Shown in pieces: positions 3,266 to 10,326 of a stretch of DNA of 64,000 nucleotides. The translations under genes were made by a program, and so were the position numbers. Under the pieces are notes generated by a model. The model worked only from the letters and a program-made list of their open reading frames with translations, was not told where the DNA came from and made no database searches. Source of the stretch: an uncultured Saprospiraceae bacterium (lineage in GTDB: Bacteria > Bacteroidota > Bacteroidia > Chitinophagales > Saprospiraceae); contig CALLWB010000027.1 in NCBI GenBank assembly GCA_938016265.1, forward strand, positions 62,001 to 126,000, given 5' to 3'. The first letter of the stretch is position 1, and each line of letters begins with the position of its first letter.

Positions 3266-3277
3266 AGTGGACGATTG

Positions 3278-3461
3278 TTTAACCCAATTCATGCAATAGG
3301 AGTTTGTTTTAGGTTGAAAACTCAATAAAAATGTGCACTCTACGGTGATTTAGACTCGCAGACGTAGTAAGATTACGGTGAGAATCAAAATTGACGGACG
3401 TGCGCAGTTTTGCAGAGGTTTCAGCTTAAAATGAATTTTCTATTGCATGAATTGGGTTTAA
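3278..3461. repeat. imperfect inverted-repeat element, MITE-like
   Basis: Outer arms of 19 identical bases face each other at 3281-3299 and 3440-3458 (AACCCAATTCATGCAATAG and its complement). Moving inward, the arms keep matching imperfectly (TTTTAGGTTGAAAACTC against TTTTAAGCTGAAACCTC, then TGTGCAC against TGCGCAC), so most of the element can fold into one long hairpin. A direct TTTAA stands just outside the CCC...GGG core on both sides (3278-3282 and 3457-3461), which would fit a 5-base target duplication. It carries no ORF. It separates the FMN reductase gene from the porV pair. Whether it is mobile or a regulatory hairpin is unknown; no second copy is evident in the window. Confidence 0.6.
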
Positions 3462-3585
3462 TAAGGAAATACTAGTCTTTTATTGAATGCAATTATAAAT
3501 AAATTAATTGAATATTTTTTGTTGATTGCTTCAAGTGGACTGCCTTCCAATCGTCCTTTTATTCGAAAGTAGTTTTCAAAATTTT

Positions 3586-4776
3586 CTAAATTTTTTCTTG
3601 TTCCTTCTGCTTTTCAAGGTTATAAGAAACTGCAATTTGAAAAGATTTATTCAACTTTAAATTCAAATTTGCGGCATAAGCCAGATCGACACCTATTCCA
3701 TTAAATCTAAATCCAATCCCGCAAGTCAGTATTTTTCTGTTACCTTTTGTTCTATGCTCGTTAAAATGTCCAAGCCGGGCAATGATAAATTGATAGCGGT
3801 ATTCGGCTCCTATCGAATAGTTATTCTCCTGGAAGTCTTCACTAGCACCGTTTGGCGCATCGCTGAACGAAGAAATCATACCCTGGATAGCCGTTTTTTC
3901 CTGAAAATCATAATAAAGTGGTTGCCCCTCCTCATTGGTGTTAGACGGTGTTGGTACCAGAAGTCGATTTACTTCGCCGGTAACGGTCAATGTGTGTTGT
4001 TCCTCAAACTTATGGATATAACCAAGGCCTAGACCGAGATTCGTAGGCAAAAAATCCGAACGGTATCTGTTCTCCAGGTAGGTCACCTTTGGTCCGACAT
4101 TCCTTATTGCTAGGCCAGTAACAATTGTTGCTTTCTTGTTGATTATTTTTAGTGGTTTGCGAAAAGTAAAAGAAAGGTCTCCTGCTCCCGTATTAATGGG
4201 TAGGACTTTTGTCCCATCTGATATTTGGCTATTAGCTTGTGAGCGGATATATTTCAGGGATAGCCCTACTGCAAAGTTTGGACTTAGCTTTTGATTGTAA
4301 GACAAAAGTCCTTCCCATGCCTTAGGCGGGGGGCTACCAATACTCCCCCCTCCCTCGGAGTCAATATAGACGAATCTATCAGAATTAGAATACCGGAAAC
4401 TTGCTCCAAGGGCACTGTTTTTTCCTAGTTTGGCGTACCCCGTAATTGCTGGAGTGATGTACACTTTTTTGTTACCTCTTTGTTTGTACCAGAATACATA
4501 CGAAGCCTGCACCCCAAATTTCGATTCAATAAACGCCAGATTGGACGAGTTCAAATTGACGGAAGTTAGAGAGGGCAAGATGGCAATTCCGCTACCACCG
4601 ATACCTGTAGATTGAGGATTGAAAGGTAGTTGAAGAAAATTCAGGGTTGTTATTAATGGGATGGTACAAGGAGCTTCTGTATAGGGATTAATGCCTTCAT
4701 TGCAATAATAGATTTGACTTAGTACAGCGGTCGATGAAAAAAGGACGAATACAATACAAATTGATAGATGTCTCAT
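3586..4776 (-). CDS. porV: PorV-family T9SS outer-membrane protein, paralog 1
   Basis: The protein has 396 residues with a signal peptide (1-20, cleaved near VLSQ). The N-terminal half has the PorV/LptO signature: a Gly-rich 'GIGGSGIAILPSLTSVNLNS' segment followed by 'SNLAF', 'GVQASYVFWY', and then repeated amphipathic strands typical of the FadL-like 14-stranded barrel. In type IX secretion PorV binds the C-terminal domains of cargo and moves it from the translocon to the attachment complex at the cell surface. The gene is the downstream member of a tandem pair with a close paralog at 5012-6199. It has more divergent loops and ends in a charged Lys/Glu tail. It could be a specialised second shuttle or a PorQ/PorV-like relative. 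T9SS cargo is encoded elsewhere in the window. Confidence 0.8.
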   Translation of the reverse strand: MRHLSICIVFVLFSSTAVLSQIYYCNEGINPYTEAPCTIPLITTLNFLQLPFNPQSTGIGGSGIAILPSLTSVNLNSSNLAFIESKFGVQASYVFWYKQRGNKKVYITPAITGYAKLGKNSALGASFRYSNSDRFVYIDSEGGGSIGSPPPKAWEGLLSYNQKLSPNFAVGLSLKYIRSQANSQISDGTKVLPINTGAGDLSFTFRKPLKIINKKATIVTGLAIRNVGPKVTYLENRYRSDFLPTNLGLGLGYIHKFEEQHTLTVTGEVNRLLVPTPSNTNEEGQPLYYDFQEKTAIQGMISSFSDAPNGASEDFQENNYSIGAEYRYQFIIARLGHFNEHRTKGNRKILTCGIGFRFNGIGVDLAYAANLNLKLNKSFQIAVSYNLEKQKEQEKI

Positions 4777-4865
4777 AGCAAAGAGGATATGATTGGTTAC
4801 AAAATGAATCTGCTAGGAATATTCCGAAACTATAATTAAGACTGGGGATATATTAGTATTATAAT

Positions 4866-4994
4866 AATCAACGATTTTTGCTATTACTTCGTTGCCAAGT
4901 AAATGGGGTTTATTAAAAAAAAAGTACTTACAGGTATTTTCTCCTTAAGGGAATTCGTCCGATACTTGCTATCGTGATGGATTAACTTTCTGAA
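4866..4994 (-). pseudogene. decayed C-terminal fragment of the P-loop kinase gene
   Basis: Read on the minus strand, 4991 to 4887 gives RKLIHHDSKYRTNSLKEKIP and onward to LATK, followed by two in-frame stops (TAA, TAG at 4886-4881). This lines up without gaps with the end of the intact kinase at 6267-6845 (RRLLNNESKYR-like region through HLAAR). About 14 of 34 residues are identical before the stops. The fragment lies immediately downstream of the second porV copy, exactly where a duplicated [kinase-porV] unit would have placed a kinase. There is no start and no P-loop, so it cannot be functional. Confidence 0.75.
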
Positions 4995-5011
4995 TTACAA
5001 GGACTTTATTT

Positions 5012-6199
5012 CTACCAAACTATTTCTTTTTCCTTCAACGGCTCAAAATTATACAAAACAGATACTCGGTAAGTTTCACCAAGCCCTTTACTTGTGTGAG
5101 TGACATAAGATAGATCGATACCAAATCCCTTGCCTCTGATACCGATACCTCCAGTTATGAGTTTTCGGTCTCCTTTTGTTTTGTGTTCATTAAAATGACC
5201 AAGTCGGCCAATGATAAACCGATATCGGTATTCCACTCCCAATGAATATTGATTTTCCCTGAAGTCTTCCCCAAGTCCCCCAGGTGCATCACCAAAGGAA
5301 GAAAACATACCTTCAACAACAGATTTTTCCGTGAAATCCAGATATTCGGGGCTTCCTTCAGTATTAACAGTAGAAGGTGAAGGGACAAGCAGTCGATTTA
5401 GCTCGCCAGTGATTGTCAACGTATGTTTTTTAGCGAATTCATGGACAAACCCAAATCCAAGGCCTAGGTTAGTAGGCAAAAAGCCCCCACGGAATCCATC
5501 CTTAATGTAAGTCACCTTTGGACCGATATTTCTGATTGCAAGACCAGTAATAAACGTCGCTTTTTTGTCACCTACCTTAAGTGGTTTGCGAAAAGTGAAC
5601 GACAGGTCTCCAGCTCCTGTTCTCAAGGGTATGATGCTGTTCCCATTCACTGTTTGGCCAGATGCTAATTTTGAACTGAGGTATTTTAGAGACAATCCCA
5701 TTGCAAAATTCGGACTTAATTTCCGATTGTATGACAAAAGCCCTTCCCATTCCCTAGGATTAAAGGAACCAATAGAAGCGCCATTCTGATCTGTATATAG
5801 GATACGACCAAGATTGAAAAATCGAAAACTTGCTCCTAGTGTAGTCGTTTCTCCCAGTCTGACATATCCTGCAGCAGTCCCCAAATAAACATCCCTTAAT
5901 CCTAATTGCCTAAGCCAGGGAGCATAAGACACCTGCACTCCAAACTTCGAATCAATAAACGCCAAATTGGAGGAGTTCAAAGCAATAGAGGTCGTAGAAG
6001 GAGAAATGGCAATCCCACTGCCTCCCATCGCTGCGGCCTCTGGATTTACAGGCATAGTTAGAAAAGGCAATGCTGTTGTTACAACATTAGAACAATTTTC
6101 TCCTGTTGTCTGGTTGATACCATCCACACAAGTTTGGCTAAACCCTAAAGTTGCTGAAACAAGGATGAAAAACACACTAACAATCAATACGTGGCGCAT
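5012..6199 (-). CDS. porV: PorV-family T9SS outer-membrane protein, paralog 2
   Basis: The protein has 395 residues with a signal peptide (about 1-21, ending TLGFSQ). Canonical PorV features are strong: 'AAAMGGSGIAISPSTTSIAL', 'SNLAFIDSKFGVQVSYAPWL', 'YLGTAAGY', 'ASFRFFNLGRI' and 'SPNFAMGLSLKYL', with alternating strands to the C-terminus. It is the better match to textbook PorV of the two copies, so it is the likelier housekeeping one. The role is shuttling T9SS cargo at the outer membrane. A TACCTTTG -7 box lies 19 bases upstream of the start. The kinase gene lies 67 bases upstream on the same strand. The two PorV proteins share most of their length, including the 'GAGDLSFTFRKPLK' block. 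Confidence 0.85.
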   Translation of the reverse strand: MRHVLIVSVFFILVSATLGFSQTCVDGINQTTGENCSNVVTTALPFLTMPVNPEAAAMGGSGIAISPSTTSIALNSSNLAFIDSKFGVQVSYAPWLRQLGLRDVYLGTAAGYVRLGETTTLGASFRFFNLGRILYTDQNGASIGSFNPREWEGLLSYNRKLSPNFAMGLSLKYLSSKLASGQTVNGNSIIPLRTGAGDLSFTFRKPLKVGDKKATFITGLAIRNIGPKVTYIKDGFRGGFLPTNLGLGFGFVHEFAKKHTLTITGELNRLLVPSPSTVNTEGSPEYLDFTEKSVVEGMFSSFGDAPGGLGEDFRENQYSLGVEYRYRFIIGRLGHFNEHKTKGDRKLITGGIGIRGKGFGIDLSYVTHTSKGLGETYRVSVLYNFEPLKEKEIVW

Positions 6200-6217
6200 A
6201 AAAAAGGGATTTATTCA

Positions 6218-6225
6218 CAAAGGTA
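6218..6225 (-). promoter_or_regulatory. -7 promoter box for porV paralog 2
   Basis: The minus-strand sequence TACCTTTG matches the Bacteroidota TAnnTTTG -7 consensus exactly and sits 19 bases before the start codon. No TTTG is found at the usual 19-base spacing upstream. Confidence 0.5.
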
Positions 6226-6266
6226 TTACGAATATACGCAAAAGCTACATTATATGTATTGTTAAT

Positions 6267-6845
6267 TTATTCCAATCCAAAATGGGCTACGATTTTCTCT
6301 GCTACTTCCCTGGCAGCCAAGTGCGTATTGTTTATTTTGAAAATGGACTTATAAGGGATTTCTCCTTCCAGTGTATTCATTCGATACTTGGATTCATTGT
6401 TGAGCAATCGTTTTTCTGAAGCGTCGACGTTTCTTTTTGTGGGTTTGAGTGCCAAGCGGTGTTCGTGTTTATTTCTTATCAGTCGTTCTTCGAGGGTGCA
6501 CTGCAATTCTACAAAATAAATTTTGGGATTTCTGTCTTTGAATAGGTGGACGATTTCATCAATATATTCTTCATCTCCTTTGTCATTCAGGTCCCAGACA
6601 AGTGTAAAGATTAAGCCATTAATAGCACTATTTGCCACTGCTTTAAAAATGTCGAATCTGATTTTTTTGTCTAATTTTCGGAAATTGGGTGTTCCAAAAT
6701 CAAAAAACTGATTGACCAGCTCCAGGGACATATGATTGTAAAACAGCTTATATTCCGTCAGTTTTTGCAATTCCTGCCCAACAGTCATCTTCCCGGAAGC
6801 AGGTGGCCCGAAAATGAGTACAAAGCTAAATGGCGAGTTTGTCAT
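6267..6845 (-). CDS. P-loop kinase-like NTPase (AAA/shikimate-kinase-like)
   Basis: The protein has 192 residues and is cytoplasmic. A Walker A loop is present near the start (GPPASGKMT, 13-21), followed by 'YNHMSLEL' as acceptor-site residues and a basic lid-like segment (RNKHEHRLALKPTKRN, about 123-138). This layout matches the small nucleoside/shikimate-kinase-like 'AAA family ATPase' group common in many bacteria, whose substrate is generally unknown. It probably phosphorylates a small molecule. A decayed copy of its C-terminus lies between the porV genes. A good promoter stands upstream. I do not see a functional link to PorV beyond adjacency. Confidence 0.75.
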   Translation of the reverse strand: MTNSPFSFVLIFGPPASGKMTVGQELQKLTEYKLFYNHMSLELVNQFFDFGTPNFRKLDKKIRFDIFKAVANSAINGLIFTLVWDLNDKGDEEYIDEIVHLFKDRNPKIYFVELQCTLEERLIRNKHEHRLALKPTKRNVDASEKRLLNNESKYRMNTLEGEIPYKSIFKINNTHLAAREVAEKIVAHFGLE

Positions 6846-6869
6846 AGTTTTTAATTTGCGTCTTTCTTA

Positions 6870-6900
6870 TAAATATATCAAGCAAAATGCATTGACCAAA
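6870..6900 (-). promoter_or_regulatory. promoter of the P-loop kinase gene
   Basis: On the minus strand TTTG (6900-6897), a spacer of exactly 19 bases and TATATTTA (6877-6870) match the Bacteroidota -33/-7 consensus with a single mismatch in the last base. Transcription would begin roughly 20 bases before the kinase start codon. Confidence 0.6.
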
Positions 6901-7208
6901 ATATAAACGGAAAAGGTTGAATCGTATTTTGCTTGTGAAAGTTTATCAAAATCGCAGGATTTAGTTCATTTTTTATTTTGAAAACTCAACTTTTTTTAAA
7001 ATTTTTTCTTCCTGATTGTGAATGGGTTAGGAAGGTTTTTGAGCGAAATTTGAAAATCGGTTTATGTAAAATCTCTTTTTCTGACTCTATATAGTAGGAG
7101 AAATTGTTTCTCTCTGCAGTCATACGGCCGATTTTACATAGTTTTAGTTCTAGGGCATACCACTAGGGTTGGGGTTGCTCTATCAAGTACTAAAATGTTA
7201 GTGTTTTG

Positions 7209-7237
7209 CTCCCTGATTTTTGCAGAAAATCAGGGAG
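7209..7237. repeat. 12-bp perfect hairpin
   Basis: CTCCCTGATTTT, a 5-base loop TGCAG and AAAATCAGGGAG form a perfect stem. No T-run follows on either strand, so a standard intrinsic terminator is unlikely. Confidence 0.5.
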
Positions 7238-7395
7238 GCGGTGGCCGGAGGGTTGGGAAAGCCCTCCCACAATCGTGGAGGTCCGTTTTTGGTTAATTTC
7301 TTGATAGTCAAATGGTTGTGGGTTTGCTGCCAATTTAGATCATCCATCAACGAGTACTTTTTCCCTTATTCATAAATAATAAAAAATAACCACCA

Positions 7396-7859
7396 ATGAT
7401 ACTATCCAATAGTGCAAGAGGATTACTAGTAGAAAACAATAAAGTCCAATTCATCGAATACCAGATAGACGGAGTTACCCACTAAGTTCTACCAGGTGGC
7501 ACCGTCGAGATAGGAGAAAGTCTGATCGAATGTGTAAAAAGAGAATTCCAGGAAGAAACCGCCCTTACAATCCCCCAGAACACCTCATTTTAGTCAATGA
7601 GTGCACAGACCCAGCACCTAAAAATGTAGCAGAAATCTGGAAAAATGGCATCCACCAAATAGAAACCCTCTTCCTAGTAAAAAGAACCTCCAATCCACCA
7701 CCCACCGACACCAGCATCAAATTTGACTACGGCATGCAAGGAACAAAATGGCTGTCAAAAGAGGACCTGGCATCCCTCACCTACTATCCAGATGTCGATT
7801 CCGACTGGTTCTTTGCTCCCAAAAATCCAACAAACAACTCTCGGACAACAAATAGATAG
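7396..7859 (+). pseudogene. Nudix hydrolase, broken by a stop and a frameshift
   Basis: From ATG 7396 the frame reads MILSNSARGLLVENNKVQFI and continues to a Nudix core (LPGGTVEIGES followed by a Cys-Val and REFQEET). This matches the Nudix box G-x5-E-x7-REuxEE. Two lesions are visible: an in-frame TAA at 7483-7485, just before LPGG, and a loss of one base in the C-run near 7566-7570, after which the C-terminal part (PEHLILVNECT to the stop at 7859) continues in another frame. Nudix enzymes hydrolyse nucleoside-diphosphate derivatives. With two lesions it is most likely inactive; a sequencing error could explain at most one of them. The C-terminal part alone appears as an uninterrupted frame from 7530. 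Confidence 0.75.
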
Positions 7860-7887
7860 CATTTTATATTCACATCCTCCAATTCGT

Positions 7888-7895
7888 TATATTTG
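7888..7895 (+). promoter_or_regulatory. -7 box of the acyl-CoA dehydrogenase gene
   Basis: TATATTTG matches the TAnnTTTG consensus perfectly and lies 36 bases before ATG 7932. It overlaps the furthest upstream in-frame start (7893), which argues for the inner start. Confidence 0.55.
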
Positions 7896-7931
7896 TTCGT
7901 TAGCAAAATCAGTGTACTTGAATCCAACAAT

Positions 7932-9728
7932 ATGACCACGCTAAAAGGCGGTGCATTTCTGACCGCCACCACTTCTCCGAAACAAGTATTCATTCCCGAA
8001 GAATGGAATGATGAGCAAACCCTGCTTATGGAAACCGTCCGCGATTTTTTTATCGAAGAGGTCCACTCCATTGGAATTGAAAAGGCAGCGCAGATCGATG
8101 TATCCAAGGACTTACCATTGATTTTGGAGGTGTTTCATAAAGCAGCAGCACTAGGATTTTGTGGGGTGTCGATTGAAGAAGAATATGGTGGAATGGATTT
8201 GGATTTTAATACCAGCTTGTATTTGATGGAGGCACTAGCACATGGCTTTTCCTTCGCTACGACCATTGGCGCTCAAACTTCAATTGGCTCATTGCCGATT
8301 GTTTTTTACGGTACGCCAGAACAGAAATCCCAGTACCTACCAGGAATCGCTACCGGAGAAATAAAAGCCGCCTATGCGCTGACAGAACCCAGCGCAGGCT
8401 CCGATGCCAACAGTGGAAAAACAAAAGCCACCCTCAATGCTGCAGGAACACATTATCACCTCACGGGACAAAAAATGTGGATCACCAATGGTGGGTTCGC
8501 GGACGTATTTATCGTTTTTGCGAAAATAGAGGACGACAAAAATCTATCCGCATTCATCGTCGAAAAAGCATTTGGTGGAATAACCATCGGCAAAGAAGAA
8601 AAGAAGCTAGGAATCAAGGCCTCCAGTACCACCCAAGTATTTTTTGAAGATTGCCCAGTACCCAAAAACAACCTGCTTGGAACACGTGAAGGCGGCTTCA
8701 AAATGGCATTAAACATACTTAACACCGGACGGATAAAACTATGCGCCGGCGCACTTGGCGGAAGCAAATTTGCAACCACCAGAGCCATCGAATACGCCAG
8801 TCAACGCAAGCAATTTGGCCAACCCATCGCCGATTTTGGCGCCATCAAATACAAGATTGGAGAAATGGTCATGCGCATTCATACCGCAGAAACCGCCACC
8901 TATCGCACAGGATTTAACGTCGATCAAAAAAGCAAGGAGCTAATGGCCGATGGAATGAAACCCAGCGAAGCAAAACTAAAAGCCGTCAAAGAGTTCGCCA
9001 TCGAATGCGCCCTCCTAAAAGTGGCAGGATCTGAGGTGCTAGATTATGTAGTAGATGAAGTATTACAAGTACATGGAGGAATGGGATTCGCCGTAGAAAC
9101 CGGAATCGAACTAGGCTACAGAGATGCCAGAATCACCCGAATCTACGAAGGCACCAACGAAATAAATCGCCTCCTATCTGTAGCAGAACTCACCAAAAGA
9201 GCCATCAAAACAAAGGAGATTGATTTGATCGGAGCAGGCAAAAAAATCCCTGGCTATCTAATAAAACAATTGCTCCCGTTTAAGTCAAAAAGTGGGCTAA
9301 ATCAAGAACGACGATTGATTGAAAATCTTAAAAAATTGTTCATCTTGCTGTCTGGTGCCGCAGGCAATAAACTAAAAGAAAAGATGGTCGACGAACAGGA
9401 AATGGTCATGAATCTAGCCGATATTTTAAACATGGCTTTCCTCGCTGAATCCACCCTCCTGCGCTATGAAAAATTGGCACAAACAACCAGCCATAATGCC
9501 GAAAATTTGAAGGCTCAACACCAAATCCTGCAACTCTATCTCTACGAATCCATACAGTTGGCAAGAAAACTAGGCGAAGACCTCATCTCCAGCTATGCCA
9601 CCGGAACTGAAAGACGCACAATGAATTGGCTAACCAGCATCTTACTACCAAAATACAACGTCAACCCTAAAGAGTTGAGAAGAGCCATCGCCAATCACGC
9701 CATCAAAAAAGGAAAATATCCGTTTTAA
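7932..9728 (+). CDS. acyl-CoA dehydrogenase, long (VLCAD/ACAD9-like) form
   Basis: The protein has 598 residues from ATG 7932; the upstream alternative at 7893 lies on the promoter box. It has all three acyl-CoA dehydrogenase regions: the helical N-domain, the beta domain with 'YALTEPSAGSDA' and 'GQKMWITNG', and the C-domain with 'ASQRKQFGQPI'. The catalytic base is Glu406 in 'RIYEGTNEINR'. About 170 residues extend beyond the catalytic core, as in VLCAD/ACAD9 enzymes and many Bacteroidota homologs. It should oxidise fatty acyl-CoA to the 2,3-enoyl-CoA with FAD in beta-oxidation, feeding an electron-transfer flavoprotein. One base separates its stop from the following PTPLA-like gene, so the two are probably co-transcribed. 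Confidence 0.92.
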   Translation: MTTLKGGAFLTATTSPKQVFIPEEWNDEQTLLMETVRDFFIEEVHSIGIEKAAQIDVSKDLPLILEVFHKAAALGFCGVSIEEEYGGMDLDFNTSLYLMEALAHGFSFATTIGAQTSIGSLPIVFYGTPEQKSQYLPGIATGEIKAAYALTEPSAGSDANSGKTKATLNAAGTHYHLTGQKMWITNGGFADVFIVFAKIEDDKNLSAFIVEKAFGGITIGKEEKKLGIKASSTTQVFFEDCPVPKNNLLGTREGGFKMALNILNTGRIKLCAGALGGSKFATTRAIEYASQRKQFGQPIADFGAIKYKIGEMVMRIHTAETATYRTGFNVDQKSKELMADGMKPSEAKLKAVKEFAIECALLKVAGSEVLDYVVDEVLQVHGGMGFAVETGIELGYRDARITRIYEGTNEINRLLSVAELTKRAIKTKEIDLIGAGKKIPGYLIKQLLPFKSKSGLNQERRLIENLKKLFILLSGAAGNKLKEKMVDEQEMVMNLADILNMAFLAESTLLRYEKLAQTTSHNAENLKAQHQILQLYLYESIQLARKLGEDLISSYATGTERRTMNWLTSILLPKYNVNPKELRRAIANHAIKKGKYPF

Positions 9729-9729
9729 A

Positions 9730-10326
9730 ATGAGAAAAAAGTACTTGATCACTTACAATTTTCTCCTGGCTATTGGCTGGTCTGCCCTGCTTGGCTATTG
9801 GTTGCTAAACGGCAGAGTGCTAGATAGGGGAGGCTGGGGATTGTTGACGGTTTGTCAGTTGGCTGCTGCCCTAGAAGTGATGCATGCTGGATTGAATTGG
9901 GTGAAAACGCCTGTTTTTACTTGCCTGATACAGGTGAGCTCCCGGATATTTGTGTTGCTTTTGATGTTGTTTTTACCGGGGGCTGACTTGCTGAGTTTTG
10001 TTGGTCTGGACGGGATTGCATTGATCCTTATTGCGTGGTCGATCACGGAGATCGTGCGATACAGCTATTATTTTGCCAACCTGATTGAACGTCCATGGTC
10101 GGTGTTGACTTACTTGCGATATACCTTGTTTTTGGTGCTTTATCCACTAGGCGTAACGGGGGAGGTATTGATCATTGTAGCTGCGATTCTGGCGGTGAAA
10201 AAGGTGTCTGTTCTATTGGCCATTGCGCTTGGCTTGGTGCTGCTCTCTTATGTCTATTTTTTTCCAAAAATGTACCAATACATGCTCGGGCAGCGTAAGC
10301 TGAAATTAGTAGAAAGTAGTTGGTAG
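9730..10326 (+). CDS. PTPLA/Phs1-like 3-hydroxyacyl-CoA dehydratase
   Basis: The protein has 198 residues and about six hydrophobic segments. Conserved signatures of the eukaryotic very-long-chain 3-hydroxyacyl-CoA dehydratase family (PF04387; HACD/Phs1) are visible: 'YLITYNFLLAIGW', 'LEVMHAGLNWV', 'QVSSRIFVL', 'AWSITEIVRYSYY' and 'LRYTLFLVLYPLGVTGE'. The catalytic Tyr and Glu of yeast Phs1 (149 and 156) correspond to Tyr138 and Glu145 here, with the same spacing of seven. In eukaryotes the enzyme removes water from 3-hydroxyacyl-CoA during fatty-acid elongation in the ER. Here it would act in the inner membrane. It directly follows an acyl-CoA dehydrogenase gene, so a lipid-metabolism role is likely. 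Its base composition is G/T-rich on the coding strand, unlike the A/C-rich preceding gene. Confidence 0.85.
   Translation: MRKKYLITYNFLLAIGWSALLGYWLLNGRVLDRGGWGLLTVCQLAAALEVMHAGLNWVKTPVFTCLIQVSSRIFVLLLMLFLPGADLLSFVGLDGIALILIAWSITEIVRYSYYFANLIERPWSVLTYLRYTLFLVLYPLGVTGEVLIIVAAILAVKKVSVLLAIALGLVLLSYVYFFPKMYQYMLGQRKLKLVESSW

Follow-up and report, generated by a model that had tools for sequence, protein, structure and literature searches.

A decayed kinase gene between two tandem porV genes points to joint duplication in an uncultured Saprospiraceae bacterium

The DNA analysed here (the window, a stretch of 64,000 nucleotides) encodes, in this order on the minus strand, a putative kinase, a first PorV (porV1), a spacer of 235 nt and a second PorV (porV2). 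The spacer itself contains a degraded copy of the end of the kinase gene. The features of the locus are:

6267..6845, minus strand: putative kinase, the surviving intact copy; 192 aa, P-loop, adenylate/shikimate-kinase-like
5012..6199, minus strand: porV1; 395 aa, 327.6 bits with NF033710
4890..4991, minus strand: kinase remnant, first part; its frame corresponds to kinase codons 145-178, with 14/35 residues identical at 4991-4887
4858..4890, minus strand: kinase remnant, second part, past a frameshift (net -4 nt); corresponds to kinase codons 180-190, to the C-terminal end
4777..4857, minus strand: 81 nt separating the remnant from the porV2 start; in the intact copy the corresponding interval, from kinase stop to porV1 start, has 67 nt
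3586..4776, minus strand: porV2; 396 aa, 259.8 bits with NF033710; the faster-evolving sister of porV1

In the published accounts drawn on here, PorV is an outer membrane shuttle of type IX secretion (PMC10202324, PMC9143113). Both porV1 and porV2 score above the equivalog cut-off (250) of NF033710, the NCBIfam model for PorV of the type IX secretion system (T9SS), and by this score the name PorV holds for both predicted proteins. The same genome encodes a PorU-linked PorV in a separate place, on contig C84 (471.2 bits for PorV, 1310.8 bits for the linked PorU; locus L081), to which porV1 and porV2 are about 44% and 35% identical, respectively. For the gene upstream of porV1, "kinase" is a working name, because the window protein scores 27.5 bits against Pfam AAA_18, just below the gathering cut-off of 29.4, and the profile of its family matches adenylate and shikimate kinase structures weakly (E 0.015-0.94). 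AAA_18 matches 9 of the 12 aligned members of the family at E <= 1e-3.

The surroundings of these genes have several features of their own. Directly upstream of the kinase lies an interspersed repeat of about 325 nt (6957-7282) with 19 matches in the genome, itself included, five of the others being near full length at 76-90% identity; a set of 19 relatives that included two congeners gave no match at E <= 1e-6, and the ORFs listed within it are at most 51 aa long. Upstream of the kinase on the opposite strand, a NUDIX hydrolase gene (7393-7856, plus strand) is broken by an in-frame stop and then by a change of frame; one of its pieces (7486-7590) scores 33.6 bits with Pfam NUDIX, above the cut-off of 21.1, and two others match nothing. 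With it, the zone of the kinase remnant has two gene fossils. At the start of an FMN-reductase-like gene there is an imperfect inverted repeat of 36 nt (3275-3310 / 3429-3464; 81% complementary), and an Rfam scan returned a single sub-threshold match, to NrrF (27 bits against 60, at 3454-3553), which we take as chance.

A first-pass annotation of this DNA had reported that a frame at 4991-4887 aligns without gaps to the end of the kinase, with about 14 of 34 residues identical. Comparison of the kinase with the spacer (4777-5011) by tblastn confirmed the ungapped alignment and the level of identity, with 35 rather than 34 as the denominator: 14/35 residues are identical and 26/35 positive, at 35.0 bits and an E value of 8e-9 for the spacer and 4.7e-5 for the whole window, where this is the best kinase match, the gene itself aside. 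A search of the whole genome with the kinase at E <= 1 found three places, namely the gene itself, the remnant at E 0.0079 and, more weakly, a third place at E 0.097, and no second clear copy of the spacer is present elsewhere in the genome (next DNA match, E 0.067). The likeness is short, with 40% identical residues, and lies in an A+T-rich spacer of low G+C, as a chance similarity might. However, among 2000 dinucleotide-preserving shuffles of the spacer none reached the observed score, either at the protein level (79; shuffles mean 28.7, sd 3.8, maximum 50) or in Smith-Waterman alignment of the DNA (85; mean 28.0, sd 4.1, maximum 52), which rules out chance. The first-pass annotation had named a score no better than that of shuffled sequence as one of the outcomes that would refute it, and this outcome did not occur. 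When a 235-nt segment was slid along the window (1049 positions, the kinase itself excluded), scores above 52 were confined to segments overlapping this site, which ranks best; it is also the second-best place in the genome, so that coincidence has a negligible probability and the homology to the kinase end between porV1 and porV2 is real. Over codons 145-190 the remnant shares 19/45 residues with the window kinase, the closest of 30 family kinases, the other 29 of which come from other genomes; the next two share 17/45.

According to the first-pass annotation, the match ends at two stop codons. The stops (TAA TAG) are present, but the homology continues past them in a shifted frame. A net deletion of 4 nt, visible as a gap in the DNA alignment, shifts the frame somewhere between about 4907 and 4890; in the shifted frame 9/21 residues are identical at 4923-4861, and the peptide EVIAKIVDYYN (4890-4858) aligns with EVAEKIVAHFG of the kinase, reaching the kinase C-terminus. 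Once the frameshift is allowed for, all 45 aligned codons are free of stops. At its upstream end, the DNA likeness begins 3 nt before 4991, i.e. 17 nt past the porV1 stop, which places its onset 17-20 nt after that stop, with the first 141-144 kinase codons gone. In addition to this truncation and the frameshift (net -4 nt), the remnant has lost its own stop codon. The four columns of this stretch that are invariant among 12 aligned kinases (L148, K170, N173, A182) are all altered in it, and so is the near-invariant G161; the remnant is therefore well decayed. With homology to a neighbouring gene, disablement and colinearity with a duplicated porV, it is an ordinary pseudogene remnant, a gene fossil.

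The position of the remnant relative to porV2 mirrors that of the kinase relative to porV1. From codon 145 to the porV start codon there are 214 nt in the intact copy and 215 nt in the decayed one; the corresponding offsets between the copies are 1422 at codon 145 and 1423 at the porV starts, and a repeat finder placed the kinase piece at an offset of 1421 and the porV pieces at 1429-1432. The likeness extends, more weakly, through the kinase-porV intergenic stretch: global alignment of the 67 and 81 nt gives a score of 10 (shuffle P 0.0064), and of the upstream regions compared, 0/53 from the window and 4/397 from the fetched loci score as high; local alignment is not significant (P 0.21). 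In a tree of 43 PorV sequences, the phylogeny for which the first-pass annotation had asked, porV1 and porV2 are sisters with a support of 100/100, and the PorU-linked PorV of the same genome groups with the PorVs of two congeners, apart from this pair. The near-equal distances to the porV start indicate that a single block, comprising the kinase end, the intervening gap and porV, was duplicated, and duplication of the kinase end together with porV is well supported by these comparisons. The proposal that a tandem duplication took in both genes thus agrees with order, strand, spacing and the sister relationship of the porVs.

Another possible source of the remnant is a member of the kinase family that was acquired on its own and not copied with porV. 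The distribution of the kinase family is patchy, which fits such a history: it was detected at E <= 1e-10 in 47 of 398 genomes of the family sample and at E <= 1e-50 in 18 of 396 genomes of the order sample (the genome studied here being counted in both), and at E <= 1e-3 in neither of the two congeners. Phylogeny is compatible with it as well, since the kinase tree does not resolve the sister of the remnant and the best tree sets it beside the kinase of locus L038; a constraint uniting remnant and window kinase is not rejected either (p-AU 0.52). On the other hand, separate acquisition does not lead one to expect distances to the porV start that agree to within 1 nt, the likeness of the intergenic stretches in the global test or the greater similarity of the remnant to the window kinase than to any other. 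Nor does it fit the surroundings of the kinase elsewhere. Across the two samples, 53 other genomes have kinase matches. In 37 of these a single locus was read, in most cases with flanks of 1.5 kb and in some up to a contig end, and the same place under other locus ids was counted once; within the flanks read, none of the 37 distinct kinase loci has a porV nearby, so two independent landings in front of porV are unlikely. We consider separate acquisition very improbable.

Within the DNA read, none of 37 distinct porV loci of other genomes has the kinase nearby. The kinase-porV unit accordingly looks like a chance neighbourhood in this genome and not a conserved module. A porV was found at E <= 1e-30 in 371 of the 398 genomes of the family sample, and once in each congener. 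The search for related loci with one or two units, suggested by the first-pass annotation, came back empty: among the genomes and loci searched there was no relative with either, nor one with two intact units. The congeners were also examined for an empty site. In G001 the homologue (69%) of the acyl-CoA dehydrogenase lies on a 7.9-kb contig, with a TetR-family regulator upstream (Pfam TetR_N, 56.1 bits) and no kinase or porV match; in G002 the best acyl-CoA dehydrogenase match is just 45%, and no corresponding site could be read.

A contig scan with porV1 identified three relatives at 43-44%. Tandem porV genes occur in G169 (locus L077, three copies behind PorU) and in G240 (locus L082, two copies), with no kinase match in either locus. 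Pairs of intact porV genes that never have a kinase between them had been named beforehand as evidence against a duplicated unit, and these two loci have that form, but they represent other duplications: on the tree their porV copies do not fall with the window pair, and long branches lead to the third copy of G169 and to one of the two in G240. The G169 trio spans 5863-9851 of its locus, and its third member, though very diverged (branch 3.04), still scores 317.2 bits as PorV. In genus g4, the extra porV genes of G240 (the tandem pair, L082 959-4318) and of G301 (L083 721-2736) lie next to a small protein whose T9SS signal domain is type B-like, with 29.1 and 30.9 bits against Pfam CHU_C (cut-off 27) and scores below the cut-off of TIGR04131. 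This is an odd neighbourhood for porV because type B cargo is said, in the account drawn on here, to need no PorV (PMC10202324).

The two window porVs share 227 of 392 residues, with dN 0.32 and dS about 1.3-1.6, and 44 of 111 four-fold sites are identical (chance 28%); judged by this divergence, their duplication is old. They have evolved at different rates. Against each of nine outgroups, porV2 has 43-54 changes of its own and porV1 16-20, i.e. about 2.5 to 3 times as many in porV2 (p 3e-5 to 6e-4, values that are not independent, the outgroups being mutually related), and the tree branches measure 1.01 and 0.28, respectively.

This divergence also provides a time scale for the second kinase. 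If the duplication was partial, with a block running from inside the kinase (about codon 142) to just after porV, the second kinase would have been dead at birth. Such an origin takes one event fewer, and the onset of likeness inside the kinase, 17-20 nt past the porV1 stop, has the look expected of its junction. For a copy dead since duplication the age was set at half the porV dS, i.e. 0.65-0.8 per site, and nucleotide identity alone (79/135 between remnant and kinase) fits decay over that time because 419/1000 simulations at 0.65 changes per site keep at least 79 identities (62/1000 at 0.8). The protein likeness, however, is far greater than neutral decay leaves at equal nucleotide identity. 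Starting from the kinase, simulations with 79/135 identities gave a BLOSUM62 score of 38 +/- 15.5, against 100 observed, and 20.7 +/- 2.6 positives, against 32 observed; neither value was reached in 3000 simulations, and 19 identical residues were reached in 1.7%. The lack of stops in the 45 codons (8.5% of simulations) is weak evidence, and the excess of identity at codon positions 1 and 2 (57/90) is not significant (P 0.089; 8.9% of simulations).

Simulations by age gave a similar picture. The observed protein score was reached in 0/1000 simulations at each of 0.65, 0.75 and 0.8 changes per site, in 34/1000 at 0.5, in 195/1000 at 0.4 and in 635/1000 at 0.3. The cleanest test employs a family profile built without the window kinase, which excludes the changes on that kinase's own branch; with it the scores are 36.7 for the remnant, 121.2 for the window kinase and 88-115 for five relatives. 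Decay from the window kinase leaves 46.6 +/- 15.2 at 0.2 changes per site and 21.2 +/- 16.7 at 0.3, so 0.2-0.3 neutral changes per site reproduce the remnant, and its score is reached in 1.8% of simulations at 0.4 and in 0/500 at 0.65 and at 0.8 with each of two starting kinases. A partial duplication with a kinase dead at birth therefore seems unlikely.

If decay starts instead from a diverged working kinase, that of L038, about 22 neutral changes give the observed likeness (P 0.47); the corresponding P values are 0.28 for L040, 0.41 for L041, 0.18 for L055, 0.95 for L044 and 0.69 for L051, and the kinase of L060 is already less like the window kinase than the remnant is, so that no decay is needed. 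A protein likeness above that left by neutral decay at the age of the porV pair makes it most likely that the second kinase long remained a working gene and was disrupted late, perhaps no earlier than halfway through the period since duplication, on the assumption of a clock and equal neutral rates, with dS near saturation, 45 codons only and an observed score that profits slightly from the choice of the frameshift point.

Late breakage in turn favours the copying of a whole unit. Taking it together with the observed homology, order, spacing, sister porVs, truncation and frameshift, we consider the following history likely. In this Saprospiraceae genome an accessory gene for a P-loop kinase would have come to adjoin an extra porV, and the block of kinase, 67 nt and porV would then have been copied in tandem. 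Both porV copies would have been retained and have diverged, porV2 faster, and the second kinase would have remained coding for much of the time since, before losing its first 141-144 codons, a net 4 nt and its own stop codon. The piece that is left would now form part of the porV2 upstream region. The first-pass annotation had likewise proposed a duplicated two-gene unit followed by loss of one kinase; residual kinase likeness favours this proposal, which is unproven to the extent that it depends on 45 codons and a clock, three quarters of the second kinase being gone and a whole copy not being directly seen. A more far-reaching scenario strikes us as highly doubtful: kinase and extra PorV would have formed a working pair, selection would have maintained two adjacent full units through most of the period after duplication, and the faster-evolving porV2 would have become free to take on other cargo once the second kinase was lost.

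The remnant helps to explain how the porV pair arose, namely by a local tandem duplication that took in neighbouring DNA, and it leaves the picture of type IX secretion unchanged. It also serves as a modest worked example: the similarity surviving in 45 codons separates a gene dead on arrival from one kept and then lost. No description of such a porV pair was found in the portion of the published PorV and type IX secretion literature consulted, which is not proof of its absence in print. Like the proteins covered by NF033710, porV1 and porV2 pass as PorV, with a putative role here as shuttles for type A CTD cargo, but they are additional to the PorU-linked PorV of their genome and lie away from it as a pair. 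They share a head-to-tail arrangement with the tandem porV genes of G169 and G240, which lack a kinase match and do not group with them. Tandem gene duplication followed by decay of one copy is a general process in bacteria, and the locus has the same elements, a colinear second copy in which one gene was kept and the other is a frameshifted 3' piece; it differs from that process in the gene pair only, not in kind.
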